Shown in pieces: positions 1-40,417 of a stretch of DNA of 64,000 nt. Source of the DNA: Butyrivibrio sp. Su6 (lineage in GTDB: Bacteria; Bacillota; Clostridia; Lachnospirales; Lachnospiraceae); assembly GCF_900108105.1 (NCBI RefSeq), contig NZ_FNUR01000006.1, positions 1 to 64,000 on the forward strand. The letters run 5' to 3'. A program made the translations under genes and the position numbers. A model generated the notes under the pieces. That model was not told the origin of the DNA and ran no database searches. It saw only the letters and a program-made list of their open reading frames with translations. How positions within the stretch are numbered: the first letter of the stretch is position 1; each line of letters starts with the position of its first letter.

Positions 1-31
1 CGGAAGATAATTAAATAAGGTGACAAAAGAA

Positions 32-493
32 ATGGATAGAATTGAATTCAAATGGACTGATGGAAACAATGAAGCTTTTCAACAGTTCTATATAGAAACG
101 GAAAAATACTATAGTCAGATTGTTGGCGGAGTAGAAAAAAGAGCTGGGTTTGTTCCATACAATCTATCTGATACTATATCTGATGTTCTCATAGCATATA
201 TCAACGGAAAACCTGTTGGTTGTGCAGGACTGAAAAAGTATTCTGATAGTGATGTTGAGATAAAGCGTGTATGGGTAGAAGCTGAGTCAAGAGGTCAAAA
301 GATTGCTAGTAGAATGATGGACTTTATTGAGGAAAAAGCCAGACAAATGAATTACAAGAGAGCAATACTGCAAACAAGACCTATTATGTTGGATGCTGTA
401 GGACTATATGAGAGACGAGGATATTCGCTTATTGACAACTATCCTCCGTATGATTGTCTTGAAGGCGCCATATGCATGGCATTAGTATTGTAA
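32..493 (+). CDS. GNAT family N-acetyltransferase
   Basis: Probable acetyl-CoA-dependent N-acetyltransferase of the GNAT fold; the acceptor is unknown. The second half shows the family pattern: a strand ending in KRVWVEAE, an acetyl-CoA-binding loop of the form SRGQKIASRMM, a helix through EEKARQMNY, and the C-terminal GLYERRGY motif near residue 124. At 153 residues it is a normal single-domain length. A GTG at 20 is in frame, but the only good ribosome site (AAGG at 17-20) would overlap it, so ATG 32 is preferred. It is monocistronic and lies at the window edge, so any upstream partner is unseen. Function beyond the fold is inference. Confidence 0.85.
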   Translation: MDRIEFKWTDGNNEAFQQFYIETEKYYSQIVGGVEKRAGFVPYNLSDTISDVLIAYINGKPVGCAGLKKYSDSDVEIKRVWVEAESRGQKIASRMMDFIEEKARQMNYKRAILQTRPIMLDAVGLYERRGYSLIDNYPPYDCLEGAICMALVL

Positions 494-565
494 ATCAGAA
501 GATAATCTTACAAAAGACAGACAAAGATTTAATGAGTAGAAAGTAAAATCAGAGTATTATTTTTG

Positions 566-787
566 ATCGCGGTTATTAAAGTTGCCACCAGCCGCATACA
601 GTAGCCCTGAGCTTTCTACCGTACGCAGCAGGTAAACAGCAACTCGCCCTAGAAATGCCCAAAACAAGGCATTTAAGAGAGTGAAAAAGTTCTCAAAGAG
701 ATAATCATCTGCTATGGCAGAATATTGTTTCTTCGGAAATATTCAAAAATCTATTACCGGAAGCCCATGTGGCTTCCGGTTTTCTAT
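566..787 (+). ncRNA. Structured noncoding RNA, possibly raiA-motif-like
   Basis: No protein is supported here, but the stretch folds into a chain of helices. GTTGC 581-585 pairs with GCAAC 639-643 and encloses GCATAC/GTACGC (594-599/621-626, one mismatch) and GTAG/CTAC (601-604/616-619). AATGCC 654-659 pairs with GGCATT 668-673. TCTGC 708-712 pairs with GCAGA 717-721. At 721-743 a hairpin is capped by a C(UUCG)G tetraloop, and a perfect terminator follows at 756-784. A TATTAT box at 555-560 could start transcription near 566. Length, architecture and a vague resemblance in the conserved strings suggest the raiA RNA motif, but that identity rests on memory only. 6S or another housekeeping RNA is not excluded. 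Confidence 0.65.
756..784 (+). terminator. Intrinsic terminator ending the ncRNA
   Basis: Perfect 10-bp stem ACCGGAAGCC / GGCTTCCGGT with a five-base loop, followed by a T run. Confidence 0.85.
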
Positions 788-940
788 TTAAGTCGTTCCT
801 ATTCGGGAATTAAAAATTTCACTTTACGATTCTATAAGATACTAAAAGATGCTTCGAAGACCCTATTTAGGCATGTCAGTTTGCTTGTGTATATAAAATA
901 TCTTGGCTGTGAATCTGATATTCTTTTAGTTGAGGCTATC

Positions 941-955
941 ATATGCAAGGCATTA
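941..955 (+). pseudogene. Possible tail fragment of a duplicated GNAT gene
   Basis: ATATGCAAGGCATTA here matches ATATGCATGGCATTA at 470-484, in the last codons of the upstream acetyltransferase, at 14 of 15 positions. The reading frame around it (EAIICKAL, then stop) resembles the gene's end (GAICMAL). No further coding similarity is visible, so this is at most a short relic. Confidence 0.3.
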
Positions 956-983
956 TGACTGCAAATCTTGGTTATTTCAAAAT

Positions 984-1285
984 GGGTCAACAAAATACGG
1001 TGAAGTAGTTGACTGTAAAGCTGATATTATTCGATTTGAGTCAACCGGAGATGGCTGAGCGGTTGACTCTAAATAAGTTATTGCTATATATAGATCAACT
1101 ATCGCATAGAAATGTTATGATCTCAAAACATGTTTTTTTAAAATGAGTCAATGGTCTTGGGGAATATTCATGACCGCAATCCCATAATTCTGTATATGAG
1201 TCAAGTGTCGAGCTGTAATCAGATGACTACAAATCCGGTCTTGTTCAAAATGAGTCAATTCAAGGCTAAGTAGCTAGTTGATTTC
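984..1285. repeat. Array of six degenerate ~54-bp hairpin units
   Basis: GAGTCAA or a close variant recurs at 984, 1038, 1092, 1145, 1198 and 1252, with spacings of 54, 54, 53, 53 and 54. About 24 bases after the start of each copy lies its reverse complement, so each unit can fold: GAGTCAAC/GTTGACTC at 1038 is perfect, and the 1092 unit keeps pairing with changed bases (AGATCA/TGATCT). Bases between the arms are unrelated from unit to unit. The gap from 494 to 1703 holds only this array, the ncRNA, and the short fragments listed separately. Function unknown. Confidence 0.75.
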
Positions 1286-1576
1286 ATTTCTACTAATGTT
1301 CTATATAAGTATGAAAAACCATTAAACCTATCGGGTTATGGGATAGTCTATCCTGAGTTCACATTCCTTTCGAGGAAACTACGAAAAGAGATTTATTGGG
1401 AGCACGAAGGGATGATGGACAAGCCTGAATACGCCATCAAGGCGGTTAAAAAGCTCAATAGCTATCAAATAAACGGGATTATGCCAGAAGAGCGCCTAAT
1501 CCTTACTTTTGAGACTGAACAGGATGTTTTGAATTCGAAGATTGTAAGTGATTTGGTGGATAAATATCTTAGATGA
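1274..1576 (+). pseudogene. C-terminal remnant of a conserved hypothetical protein
   Basis: About 100 codons are open but have no plausible start; an in-frame stop lies at 1271-1273. The translation contains YPEFTFLSRKLRKEIYWEHE, then GMMDKPEYA, LNSYQINGI and LILTFETEQ, ending in DLVDKYLR. From memory this matches the end of a ~300-residue protein family common in Lachnospiraceae, possibly nuclease-like (RKEIYWEH core). The N-terminal two thirds are missing and the hairpin array abuts the break. The family function is not known to me. Confidence 0.6.
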
Positions 1577-1703
1577 ATGGATATCTCAGATGAACCGTAA
1601 TTATTTGATTTGCATGCCGGTAAATTATATAGCATACTAAAGATTACTGATTTTTTGATTCGATACATTAAATGAGAGATTAAATATAAGGAGAAAATTT
1701 AGT

Positions 1704-2498
1704 ATGAAAATGGGTAGCAGTAACGATAAAGAGGCAGTAAAGGCACAGTATGCATCATCCAAAAGCCTTGATACCAGAATCAACTTCCATAATATGTATT
1801 CAACAAACAAGATGGGGTTTGGCCCCTGGCTTATATCTAATTATGAGATTAAAGAGGGCATGAAAGTACTTGAGATTGGATGCGGAACAGGCGATATGTG
1901 GAAAGGGCACGGCGATCTCATCGCAAAGTGTGATAAGCTTGTTCTATCTGATTTTTCTGAAGCTATGCTTGACGCTGCAAGGAAGAACGTTGGAGAGTTT
2001 TCAAACATAGAATACAAGCAAATCGATGTTCAGAATATACCTTTTGAAGAGAGCTCTTTTGACATAGTAATAGCAAACATGATGCTCTATCACGTGCCGG
2101 ATATAGATAAAGCAATCAGTGAGGTCAGAAGAGTACTTAAGGATGATGGCGTTTTTTACAGCGCTACATACGGTGAGCACAATTTCAATGATATTATTGC
2201 TGAATGGTTTGGGCTTGTTGGCAAGAACTATGATCCTAACCATCTATTTACCCTTCAGAACGGAGGAGATGTTCTGGGAAAAGAGTTTGCGGATATAGAG
2301 GTGCGCCGATACGAGGATTCTCTTCATGTTACAAATATAGATGATCTTGCAGATTACCTTCAGAGTCTGAAGGCTCTTCATGGCATTGGAACTATGGAAA
2401 GAGAAGAGATTCTTAATATGCTGCTACCTCATGTAGAAGGTGGCGCCATCAATCTTCAGAAGGAATATGGAACTTTCATAGCACAGGGGATAAAGTAA
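1704..2498 (+). CDS. Class I SAM-dependent methyltransferase
   Basis: Predicted small-molecule methyltransferase of the UbiE/Methyltransf_11 type. The SAM-binding glycine motif VLEIGCGTG lies at residues 55-63, the acidic motif II at LSDFSEAML near 80, and motif III at IANMMLYHVPD near 121, followed by VRRVLKDDG. The C-terminal ~90 residues form the substrate-side cap and give no specificity. Length (264 residues) is usual. ATG 1704 follows AAGGAG at 1690. It stands alone between a gene relic and a membrane-protein operon, so context does not suggest a substrate. Confidence 0.88.
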   Translation: MKMGSSNDKEAVKAQYASSKSLDTRINFHNMYSTNKMGFGPWLISNYEIKEGMKVLEIGCGTGDMWKGHGDLIAKCDKLVLSDFSEAMLDAARKNVGEFSNIEYKQIDVQNIPFEESSFDIVIANMMLYHVPDIDKAISEVRRVLKDDGVFYSATYGEHNFNDIIAEWFGLVGKNYDPNHLFTLQNGGDVLGKEFADIEVRRYEDSLHVTNIDDLADYLQSLKALHGIGTMEREEILNMLLPHVEGGAINLQKEYGTFIAQGIK

Positions 2499-2593
2499 GT
2501 GGACCAGGGAGCAAAAGGTACTATATCTTTTCTGACAAGTTTGTGGTAGGGTCAAAGTAGGTAAAGTTATTCGCATTTGAAAGGAGACCTGCC

Positions 2594-3067
2594 ATGAAGA
2601 ATATAAGACTGGTTCTAATCGGTGAATTGCTACTGTTCATTGCGGTATTTATGATGACTGTATTAGGGGGAAGCTGGGGGATGTCTGCTGTCTTATGGTT
2701 CCTTGACTTGCCATCGATACTGCTTATAGTACTAATCTTTGTTCCGGGATTACTTATCATGGGGGAATGGAAGAATTTCTTAAAAGCATTTTCAGTTGGC
2801 ATCAGGCCATTTAGTCTGTTGGAACTGAAAAATATAATAGGCGCTGTCGATGCGGCCCAGAAGCTTACTATATATGCAGCTCTTTTTGCAATAATCATAT
2901 CAGGGGTTCTGTTGATGGGACGATTAGACGATCCATATACGATAGGTCCCAATTTGGCAGTCTGTTTTCTGGCCGGATTATATGCAGTTATTATTGAGTT
3001 TTTGCTTCTTCCACTGAGGCTGAATGCAGAGCGGAAGATGAATGAAGAAATGGATCTGGGAGAATGA
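2594..3067 (+). CDS. MotA-like four-helix membrane protein
   Basis: A 157-residue integral membrane protein with about four hydrophobic segments (residues ~5-27, 31-55, 92-108, 118-137). The layout and segments such as DLPSILLIVLIFVPGLL and the polar loop with WKNFLKAF recall the N-terminal half of MotA/ExbB-type channel proteins, but it is much shorter than MotA (~250-290), so it is not a flagellar stator. AGGAGA lies 9 bases before ATG 2594. Its stop overlaps the next gene's ATG (ATGA), so the two are translationally coupled. The HTH partner suggests a membrane-sensor/regulator pair; that is inference. Confidence 0.6.
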   Translation: MKNIRLVLIGELLLFIAVFMMTVLGGSWGMSAVLWFLDLPSILLIVLIFVPGLLIMGEWKNFLKAFSVGIRPFSLLELKNIIGAVDAAQKLTIYAALFAIIISGVLLMGRLDDPYTIGPNLAVCFLAGLYAVIIEFLLLPLRLNAERKMNEEMDLGE

Positions 3068-3303
3068 CGAAAAATGAGATAACAAAACAGCAGTATCTCA
3101 AAGTTGCTCAGAAATACAGCTTTACTAGACGTGAACTGGAGCTGGGCTTTCTGAAGGTGTCCGGTTTTTCAAATAGAAGAATAGCATTTATGCTTGGAAT
3201 ATCGGAGCAGACTGTTAAGAATCATTTTACGCATATTTATGAGAAAGCGTGGGTTCCGGGAAGAAAGGAATTCCATGAATTGTTTGTAAATAATCAGGAC
3301 TAA
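3064..3303 (+). CDS. Small LuxR-type HTH regulator
   Basis: A 79-residue protein that is almost only a GerE/LuxR DNA-binding domain: FTRRELELGFLKVSGFSNRR, then IAFMLGISEQTVKNHFTHIY, the classic recognition helix. There is no receiver or sensor domain, so activity must be set by level, by a partner, or by the MotA-like protein whose stop codon it overlaps. Coupled translation implies the two products are made in proportion. Its stop (3301-3303) is followed in the same frame by the ABC-ATPase relic, which suggests a deletion junction nearby. Confidence 0.8.
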   Translation: MTKNEITKQQYLKVAQKYSFTRRELELGFLKVSGFSNRRIAFMLGISEQTVKNHFTHIYEKAWVPGRKEFHELFVNNQD

Positions 3304-3315
3304 AGATCACTGAAA

Positions 3316-3495
3316 ATGGAAATAGATATGAGGGTAAGAAACGTATCTGATCTTTTGAAGTCTCTTGCAGAGGCAGGAAGAACAGTGTTTGTTTCTACAC
3401 ATGATCCGGAATTGATTGAGCTTTGTTGTGATCATGTGCTGACTATTAGTAATGGAAAGGTATTTAGTCTGGTAGACAAGACTGGAGCGGTATAA
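3316..3495 (+). pseudogene. C-terminal relic of an ABC (ECF-type) ATPase
   Basis: This 59-codon frame reads as the last quarter of an energy-coupling-factor or cobalt-type ABC ATPase: VRNVSDLLKSLAEAGRTVF, then VSTHDPELIELCCDHVLTI, containing the switch histidine (STHD) and the usual SNGKV ending. Walker A, signature and Walker B are absent, and no ribosome site precedes its ATG. It lies in the same frame as the HTH gene just upstream and ends 5 bases before the esterase, so it probably marks a deletion that removed an ABC transporter from an operon with the esterase. Confidence 0.7.
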
Positions 3496-3500
3496 CGAAC

Positions 3501-4163
3501 ATGATAGTTGAAGGAAAGCATATCTATATACATGGAGACAGAGAGAAATCTGCGCCACTTATTGTCATGAATACATTTCAGGGTGATGAAAGTAATGTTT
3601 ATAGTGCGCTTTGTACCATAACGGAAAAAGAGCTGAATCTTGCTGTTATAAGTGATATCAACTGGAATGATGAGATGTCTCCCTGGGAATGTGCACCTTT
3701 GTATAAAAATGACAGTCCTTACACGGGCGGAGCCGACAGATATCTTGAGAAGCTGACTGGGAGCATAATCCCTGCGATAAAAGATGAGCTTGGCGCAGAA
3801 CCTGAATATACGGCTATCGCAGGCTATTCGCTTGGGGGATTGTTTGCACTTTACAGCTTGTATAAGACTGATGTGTTCACCAGAGCAGTGAGTGCATCAG
3901 GTTCTATGTGGTATCCTTCATTTTCAGAATATGTAGAAAAAAATGATTTTTGTAAAATGCCTTCAAAAGTATATTTTTCCCTTGGTGATAAAGAGGCGCG
4001 CACTCGCAACGCGCTTCTTAGTACAGTTGAAGATAAGACCGGAAAAGTTTATGATCAATACAAAAATAAGGGAATAGAAACTACGTTTGAAATGAATCCG
4101 GGAAATCATTTCAAAGATGCAGATTTGCGTCTTGCAAAGGGAATAGCCTGGATACTTAAATGA
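3501..4163 (+). CDS. Alpha/beta hydrolase, putative esterase
   Basis: Cytoplasmic esterase of the Fes/IroE/esterase-D superfamily, without signal peptide. The nucleophile elbow GYSLGG places Ser110; SLGDKEAR gives the likely acid and GNHFKD the catalytic His203. Length 220 is normal. Fes-like enzymes hydrolyse esters of imported siderophores, and linkage with an ABC importer is common; here only a relic of an ABC ATPase remains just upstream, so the original role may be lost. Substrate is not determinable from sequence. Confidence 0.8.
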   Translation: MIVEGKHIYIHGDREKSAPLIVMNTFQGDESNVYSALCTITEKELNLAVISDINWNDEMSPWECAPLYKNDSPYTGGADRYLEKLTGSIIPAIKDELGAEPEYTAIAGYSLGGLFALYSLYKTDVFTRAVSASGSMWYPSFSEYVEKNDFCKMPSKVYFSLGDKEARTRNALLSTVEDKTGKVYDQYKNKGIETTFEMNPGNHFKDADLRLAKGIAWILK

Positions 4164-39624: not shown

Positions 39625-39962
39625 TACGGATAAGAATGCTGATAAAGTGCAATCTTATCCGTACAATCTGTCAGTAGATAGTTCATTTTCCGCGTGACAT
39701 ACGGATAAGACAGCGTACAACGTGCAATCTTATCCGTACAATCTGTCAGTAGATAGTGCATTTTGCACGTGACATACGGATAAGACAGCATGCAACGTGC
39801 AATCTTATCCGTACAATCTGTCAGTAGACACTTCATTTCCCGCGTGACGTACGGATAAGACAGCATACAACATGCAATCTTATCCGTAAAAGGAAAGATC
39901 ATTGAGCAAAAATGACCATATTGTACGGATAAAAATAAAGAATAGTGCTGAAGTTATCCGTA
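39625..39962. repeat. 75-bp tandem hairpin repeat array (five hairpins)
   Basis: TACGGATAAGA and TCTTATCCGTA form 39-base hairpins at 39625, 39700, 39775 and 39850, exactly 75 bp apart; a fifth, shorter copy (TACGGATAA/TTATCCGTA) is at 39924-39962. The 36-base stretches between the first four hairpins are also nearly identical (start CAATCTGTCAGTAGA), so this is tandem duplication, not CRISPR. The unit length of 25 codons keeps a minus-strand frame open, but that frame lacks a ribosome site. The 39373-40012 gap holds only this array and the terminator. Confidence 0.9.
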
Positions 39963-40012: not shown

Positions 40013-40417
40013 TTATTTAAACGGCACATGAGCTCCTGTGAAGGAGACTACTGCAATCAGCTTATCAAGATCGTCTGTTACAGTGACTTCGAAGAAGCTG
40101 TTTCTTTTGCCGTTTTTTAAGAGTCTGGCTTCTGCAAAAAGCTTGTTTCCTTTGGTTGCTGACATGAAATTTGCCTGACCTACAAGGCTAACTGTTGCGC
40201 ACTCTTTTCCATAATTGGATGCTACTGCGAAGGCAAAATCAGCCAGTGTATAGATGGCGCCGCCCATTATGCCGCCATAGGCATTTTTGTGTTTTGGAGT
40301 AAGTTCCATGCTGCATTTTGCATAGTTTTCACCTATCTCATCGATAACGGCACCGGAAAGCTCTGTGGCATACAGATCTTTTGAAAAAACTTCTCTTGCA
40401 TCTTCAAGTGTTCCCAT
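40013..40417 (-). CDS. PaaI-type hotdog thioesterase
   Basis: A 134-residue single hotdog domain. The PaaI/YdiI signature is present: HKNAYGGIMGGAIYTLADFA with the helix and catalytic Asp, followed by the strands VSLVGQANFMSATKGNKLFA and NSFFEVTVTDD. It probably hydrolyses an acyl-CoA, typically aryl-CoA or small-chain; the substrate is not predictable. GGGGATAAAAC leads into ATG 40417. It runs in the same direction as aroQ, 75 bases downstream of it, so co-transcription is possible but no functional link is apparent. Confidence 0.9.
   Translation of the reverse strand: MGTLEDAREVFSKDLYATELSGAVIDEIGENYAKCSMELTPKHKNAYGGIMGGAIYTLADFAFAVASNYGKECATVSLVGQANFMSATKGNKLFAEARLLKNGKRNSFFEVTVTDDLDKLIAVVSFTGAHVPFK

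Follow-up and report, generated by a model that had tools for sequence, protein, structure and literature searches.

A worn array of DNA half-sites beside a truncated EDxHD-like nuclease gene in Butyrivibrio sp. Su6, the probable remains of a two-part module

Introduction

The closest described systems to the locus reported here are the REP sequences and their RAYT genes. As two papers on these systems describe them, the sites lie beside a RAYT gene, gene-less copies are dispersed, and the type of site goes with the gene (PMC2817692, PMC3116915). The mechanism of their spread is called unresolved in the REPIN paper (PMC3116915). A review describes the EDxHD enzyme I-Bth0305I as forming a dimer on its target, which spans nearly 60 bp (PMC3943268). 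In streptococci, integrative elements insert at rpsI, guaA and rumA (PMC4701971).

The window analyzed here is a 64,000-nucleotide stretch of the genome of Butyrivibrio sp. Su6, which carries an array of short repeats and a truncated gene near its start. Repeats that accompany a gene are known from several other systems. CRISPR arrays have near-identical direct repeats, diverse spacers and cas genes; in type III toxin-antitoxin systems, a toxin gene of the ToxN/AbiQ fold stands behind RNA repeats; and TIGR-Tas combines a Nop-domain Tas protein with a guide array. No description of arrays like those reported below, or of their protein family, was found in open-licence PMC papers (supplements excluded). 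In gut and rumen bacteria, nucleases and DNA sites of their own appear to be paired in a widespread arrangement that has not been described before.

The Array and the Truncated Gene

The array comprises six units of 53–54 bp at positions 984–1285 (no strand assigned), with the half-sites GAGTCAA and TTGACT in alternating orientation. It is preceded by degenerate outer units at 903–983 (no strand assigned; repeat families D1–D3). A sequence-only reading of this DNA had described six units of about 54 bp with six copies of GAGTCAA, each followed by its inverse. The six units are present, and degenerate ones reach back to about 903. GAGTCAA is exact at four of the six positions (1038, 1145, 1198, and 1252), but GGGTCAA stands at 984 and AGATCAA at 1092; the inverse TTGACTC is exact once (1063), with variants (TTGACTG, TGACCG, TGACTA, TTGATT) elsewhere.

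Between 891 and 1300, seven sites of the TGAGTCAA type with at most one mismatch were counted, whereas 1000 dinucleotide shuffles gave 0.56 on average and never more than 4; the motif had been picked from the same data as were scored. A motif-free statistic was weaker, since the top 7-mer occurred five times in the array and this count was reached in 7 of 1000 shuffles. Sites with at most two mismatches numbered 13, inside the shuffle range (mean 5.4, maximum 16). The array aligned unit for unit with arrays behind rpsI in related genomes, and this alignment is stronger evidence of its reality than the shuffle counts. Four intact relatives were compared column by column: 63 of 88 columns were invariant in the arms, which were taken at up to three mismatches near a hand-set grid, and 53 of 188 in the interiors. 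The arms are thus conserved and the bases between them drift, as had been proposed from the sequence.

The earlier view that the array is neither CRISPR nor a simple tandem duplication was upheld. A CRISPR array was rejected because the half-sites are inverted, the interiors of such arrays are often near-identical, and the adjoining gene encodes an EDxHD-like nuclease. Protein-coding repeats were also rejected, none of the three forward frames being open across the array. Uniqueness of the motif and a lack of alignment in relatives had been put forward as signs against the array, and the outcome was mixed: the exact pair GAGTCAA-N16-20-TTGACY occurs in this genome at this locus only, and relatives with aligned arrays were found. 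A looser pattern of the same code matched in 33 of 61 same-genus genomes, in many of them singly (backward control, 0–2 per strand). Runs at 53–55 bp steps were present in several genomes (e.g., G051, G026, G041, and G058).

The abutting gene was correctly read as truncated. It lies at 1301–1573 on the forward strand and encodes the C-terminal 91 amino acids of an array-associated EDxHD-like nuclease family. Two relatives (G042 and G055) carry the same array and an intact gene directly behind rpsI, and about 690 bp extra, which fall where window positions 1295 and 1304 meet; the window copy has therefore lost the N-terminal part of its gene. The sequence alone had not revealed that this gene is the partner of the array and belongs to a nuclease family with one motif per protein type. 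Ahead of the array, a copy of the rpsI 3′ end (codons QFSKR plus stop) lies at 688–705 on the forward strand. The same sequence ends rpsI in G042, G055, and G041, where the array and the nuclease gene follow, and the rpsI gene of this genome itself lies on a different contig (C21:75197-75592). A terminator-like hairpin with a T-run was read from the sequence at 756–784 on the forward strand, in the interval from the rpsI end to the array; it is conserved in the alignment of the relatives. We consider it probable, though some way from certain, that the window array is the worn half of a decayed two-part module, with a degrading array and a gene that lacks its N-terminal part. This judgement is joint with that on the mechanism proposed below.

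The sequence at 491–705, which ends in the rpsI 3′-end copy, belongs to a kind of 130–230 bp (approximately) that forms clustered repeats in many same-genus genomes. It appears to be the terminal part of gene cassettes that have accumulated downstream of rpsI. The assembly of this genome holds one copy, and contig ends fall in neighboring repeats. An integron attC was rejected for the part at 491–687, which did not fit the attC boxes and whose DNA fold (z −1.51) was matched by 13 of 200 shuffles. An acetyltransferase gene occupies 20–493. Positions 1–390 recur without change at two contig ends, those of C21 (C21:82308-82697) and C8, and positions 406–510 are 98% identical to the end of C4. Judged from these sequence matches, window 1–510 is a multi-copy cassette collapsed at contig ends.

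A Nuclease Family with Upstream Arrays

The family of the truncated gene has six full-length paralogs in this genome. Arrays were found upstream of five, each with another motif (CTGCCTA, TACGTGA, ATCCGTA, TACTGCA, and GGGTGCA); the sixth, L006, had none by 7-mer count. A scan of genome contigs detected at least 566 relatives, of which 80 were kept, in Butyrivibrio, Blautia, Mediterraneibacter, Eisenbergiella, and other genera. The family was present in 54 of 61 same-genus genomes. Across the class, a search at E 1e-20 placed it in 27 of 391 genomes and 16 of 222 genera.

Scripted gene finding gave 115 genes in 117 loci, and the 103 with at least 500 bp upstream were scored; these loci are partly redundant (identical or near-identical genes). 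An array was called where the 700 bp upstream contained six or more copies of one 7-mer. By this criterion, arrays stood upstream of 66 of the 103 genes; the same count was positive for 4 of 100 downstream stretches and for 2 of 1030 shuffled sequences, and 37 of the 103 genes, L006 among them, had no array by 7-mer count. A class-wide search yielded 30 loci, two of which had no pattern hit and eight of which were same-genus (at least seven of them seen before). The other 20 were scored: outside the genus, arrays lay upstream at 10 of 20 loci and downstream at 1 of 19 (L164, 15 copies). The number of half-sites per array reached 27 (L036), and some arrays, L007 for example, have a stretch in a single orientation.

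The gene before the array, among the 115 genes, was rlmD/rumA at 17 loci, rplM or rpsI at 14, guaA at three, and xpt at three; the names come from reading the sequences, and many loci end before a neighbor. The downstream neighbors mostly differed between loci. The occurrence of arrays and genes at conserved neighbors (rpsI, rlmD, and guaA) suggests long residence rather than lively movement.

The motif of each array followed the type of its protein. The fetched genes nearest to the window fragment were L065 (87%), L083 (85%), and L085 (82%), and these are the three fetched genes whose arrays carry the motif of the fragment (TGAGTCA). Among 66 arrays, there were 56 pairs whose proteins were at least 80% identical, and 55 of these had the motif in common, as against about 2% of 529 pairs at 50–60% identity. 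Motif and protein distances were correlated (Mantel r 0.51, reached by none of 2000 permutations), and the partial correlation of the motif was +0.35 with the N-terminal part and −0.13 with the nuclease part; the array pairs behind these statistics are non-independent. Each protein type has a motif of its own, so that the paralogs within a genome differ in code. The pairing of array and nuclease gene, with one code per protein type, is well supported.

The predicted structure of L083, modeled with a 62-sequence alignment, was confident (mean pLDDT 94.2, pTM 0.76). In the model, a beta-hairpin region connects two long helices, which are followed by a helical linker and a nuclease domain. Foldseek against the PDB gave nothing below E 0.001. 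With a second aligner, the best non-coil match was the catalytic domain of I-Bth0305I (3r3p; Z 9.0, rmsd 2.6, 90 of 97 residues). The next matches were Bax1 (Z 8.0) and TnsA (Z 7.8), and a Z of about 9 is only modestly above the unrelated rows of the search. The coiled-coil part matched many unrelated coils, from which nothing was concluded. Residues E159, D190, E205, and H206 were invariant in all 62 members, and the residue after H206 varied (alignment A1). The protein is thus predicted to consist of a coiled coil with a beta-hairpin tip and a nuclease domain that resembles the EDxHD homing endonuclease I-Bth0305I. A sequence search for a solved relative returned chance-level matches only. 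Nothing convincing was found in Pfam, NCBIfam, and PHROGs (best PHROG 2.7e-05, of unknown function), and 50,697 phage records held one weak relative with 32% identity. The family gene is under purifying selection, with a median dN/dS of 0.11 and a maximum of 0.72 among 126 non-independent pairs.

Half-Sites in Double-Stranded DNA

The unit at 1092 had been read as a compensatory change in a hairpin, and an RNA scaffold had been suggested. The paired change AGATCA/TGATCT is present, but compensated positions were near expectation across the arrays. The test used those of 43 nonredundant arrays that had enough gaps, with 207 and 224 arm pairs; it gave 10 compensated changes vs. 8.9 expected and 14 vs. 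10.4, beside 142 and 141 one-sided changes. With all arrays included, the counts were 17 vs. 16.5 and 28 vs. 20.4. The counterparts of the 1092 unit, compared by eye, were paired in G055, G042, G014, and L083, and incompletely paired in L065 and G041. The fold z-scores on the two strands were weak (−1.25 and −2.21), and the lengths of units and gaps step by about one turn of DNA, both of which speak against the hairpin or RNA scaffold.

When one unit length was taken per motif (37 motifs), 20 fell at 51–55 bp, eight at 61–65, and four at 74–76, and longer units followed at 83 (one), 94–95 (two), and 106–107 (two, each seen once). The units of 106 and 107 are probably doubled units. The list holds units seen once (94, 65, 51, 106, and 107). 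For ten cleaned families with units longer than 57 bp, the Rayleigh test gave p of about 0.003 at 10.5 bp; these ten arrays were chosen by hand, and L002, L008, L011, L089, L100, L103, and L163 were dropped. A first test of gaps, contaminated by near-match sites, showed no clear period of 10.5 and was redone on exact sites. Among exact sites, gaps deviated by 3 or more in 10 cases, and the size of the deviation was always 9, 10, 12, 21, or 22; these cases come from five arrays, among which two pairs are related. The interiors were near-identical copies in several arrays, so that the arrays are not a set of diverse guides. Since lengths step by about one helical turn and compensation does not exceed chance, the arrays look like double-stranded DNA sites rather than RNA hairpins. 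Conserved half-sites in phased double-stranded DNA are well supported.

Solo Arrays

One code was also found in arrays away from its gene. The pattern TACGGATAA-N21-TTATCCGTA formed 28 dyads in this genome, all with exactly N21 where N4–34 was allowed, and the backward control gave 0. Four of these dyads lie upstream of the cognate nuclease gene L004 on contig C11, and 24 lie away from it. Five form a solo array in the window, at 39625–39962 (no strand assigned), between convergent genes and without an adjoining nuclease gene. Four further arrays on C11 hold 6, 2, 4, and 5 dyads, the last with an 85-bp period. The TACGTGA code likewise has a second, gene-less array at C4:192530-192631.

The TACGGATAA copies have interiors in common, and four have a similar last unit. 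The similarity ends at the last dyad in several copies, and the copy at C11:131.4k runs on to just before the nuclease start. Copies with common interiors and last unit at several places call for a copying process.

Among 61 genomes, two or more TACGGATAA dyads were found only in the genome studied here (G000, 28), G012 (17), G050 (12), G041 (7), and G008 (2), and a nuclease at least 95% identical to L004 was found in exactly these five, the next best matches being at most 49% identical. Dyads and nuclease therefore occurred together in five genomes, the nuclease only in none, a single dyad only in one, and neither in 55. The nuclease of G050 consists of residues 59–277 only, yet its 12 dyads have been kept, and G045 carries one single N20 dyad without the cognate nuclease. 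The five genomes are probably close relatives, and hence the match of dyads and nuclease may be one event. Solo arrays go with their nuclease, as supported by this one code.

The solo array of the window has orthologous solo arrays in G012 and G050. At this intergenic spot, a TACGGATAA array was present in G000, G012, and G050, none was seen in G041 and G039, and another code was seen in G060 (the last three by eye).

Several further observations concern these places. In G060, a solo array of the CTGCCTATA/TATAGGCAG type (L221, by eye) lies beside a thioesterase-type gene orthologous to window 40013–40417. A solo array of the TACTGCA type (L129, C11:231548-232000) is flanked on either side by a single TACGGATAA dyad, which gives the impression that an array of one type was inserted into an array of the other. 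A NUDIX-type gene, named by reading, is duplicated at 87% identity (L126, C11:132477-132886; L127, C11:161496-161905), each copy shortly downstream of a TACGGATAA solo array. At L127 (C11:161.1-161.5k), a TGCTGATAAGTGGCCCATT repeat was seen by eye some distance to the left and directly to the right of the solo array; this bracketing is possibly an insertion footprint.

Origin and Function of the Arrays

The best explanation, which we hold to be true with somewhat better than even confidence, is that the window carries a decayed array–nuclease module that worked as follows. In an intact module, the protein would consist of an N-terminal coiled coil with a beta-hairpin tip and a C-terminal endonuclease domain of the EDxHD/Vsr type. 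Its N-terminal part would read the upstream half-sites of alternating orientation, probably as a dimer and along one face of the double helix. The nuclease would act on the dyads, in trans too, and its action would copy, trim, and rearrange arrays, much as the RAYT transposase is thought to do with REP. The regulator-binding array and the relic of a recombination platform, both named in the sequence-only reading, come near to this; its hairpin and RNA scaffold do not. A further proposal, to which we give slightly less than an even chance, is that these modules form a separate element class. In such a class, EDxHD-type genes would each have their own helically phased dyad array, read by a fast-changing coiled-coil/beta-hairpin domain, and would seed, copy, and rearrange gene-less arrays; a REP/RAYT-like life would have been reached independently, across 16 or more genera within a single class.

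Other explanations were considered. The arrays may be operators or sinks, where the protein represses its own gene or parks active nuclease, and the solo arrays would be further operators or remnants, with nothing mobile. The arrays do lie directly upstream of the gene and on its side, phasing and dyads fit cooperative binding, and G000, G012, and G050 retain solo arrays at orthologous positions. However, 27 half-sites, as in L036, is a high number for an operator, the solo array of the window lies between convergent genes, and the copies that share interiors and last unit need copying; we regard this explanation as unlikely. Iteron- or centromere-like DNA, with arrays that organize or segregate the chromosome or an island and a protein that is a DNA-binding scaffold, would explain why the sites alternate and are phased and why the protein has a coiled coil. 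It would also suit the location beside genes that are insertion targets of streptococcal islands (PMC4701971). A pure scaffold, however, would not need the catalytic-type residues that are invariant in 62 of 62 members, and several different codes occur within one genome, so this is a very improbable reading.

An array of RNA hairpins, transcribed and then processed or bound by the nuclease as type III toxin-antitoxin RNA, guide, or antitoxin RNA, would agree with the strand and position of the repeats, which are those of type III antitoxin repeats. Single paired changes (AGATCA/TGATCT in the window, TACTGTA/TACAGTA in L005) and the minus-strand z-score of −2.21 point the same way. The near-chance number of compensated changes and the many one-sided ones, the length steps of about one DNA turn, and arrays partly in a single orientation (L007) count against it, as does the lack of any Rfam match in window 1–4000 at E up to 1; we find it improbable. 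Neutral tandem duplication beside an unrelated gene could claim the near-identical units of some arrays (L040 and L074), but arms that are kept while interiors drift, a motif that follows the protein, and the upstream excess lead us to treat it as refuted by the results.

If the pairing is true, a large unnamed family (at least 566 relatives) would be a natural series of protein-and-site codes. The presumed target of each protein would be written beside it in many copies, so that the specificity of homing-type nucleases would become readable and testable. The modules would also be a second, independent case of the REP/RAYT kind with a different enzyme. Many of them lie behind rpsI, guaA, and rlmD/rumA, named among the streptococcal insertion targets (PMC4701971), and they may thus bear on the growth of islands.

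Comparison with Known Systems

In a Pfam scan of 62 members, the best 25 of the 42 families matched included no transposase, no ToxN family, and no Nop family, and the L083 model is of another fold than ToxN. Among phage-defense candidates, the PADLOC models PDC-S68 and PDC-S69 matched 62 and 55 of 62 members, respectively, through a related C-terminal nuclease domain (residues 135–259 of L083; alignment A2). However, the PDC-S68 models have about 1200 residues, and only their last part matches the family.

The EDxHD homing endonucleases, represented by I-Bth0305I, share with the family a multi-domain protein and, according to the model, the fold of the catalytic domain. The target of nearly 60 bp given for I-Bth0305I in a review (PMC3943268) is about the length of one array unit with its dyad. 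In contrast to these enzymes, the genes inspected here stand alone between genes and not in an intron or intein, and many copies of the site lie beside the gene.

The likeness is widest with REP, BIME, and REPIN sequences and their RAYT genes. Both kinds of system have short inverted sites at regular spacing and in alternating orientation beside a nuclease gene, with one site type per gene type and dispersed gene-less copies. In both, the cognate inverted sites beside the gene co-evolve with it, and the abundance of a site type tracks the presence of the gene, here for one code in 61 related genomes. They differ in the protein, which here has a predicted nuclease fold of the EDxHD/Vsr type with a coiled coil, whereas RAYT is a Y1/HUH tyrosine transposase of the IS200/IS605 type. 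They also differ in the sites, which here form long upstream arrays with helical steps instead of flanking palindromes and are far fewer (28 dyads of one code). Because most outward features are held in common and the protein is unrelated, the module resembles REP/RAYT in its way of working but falls outside that group.
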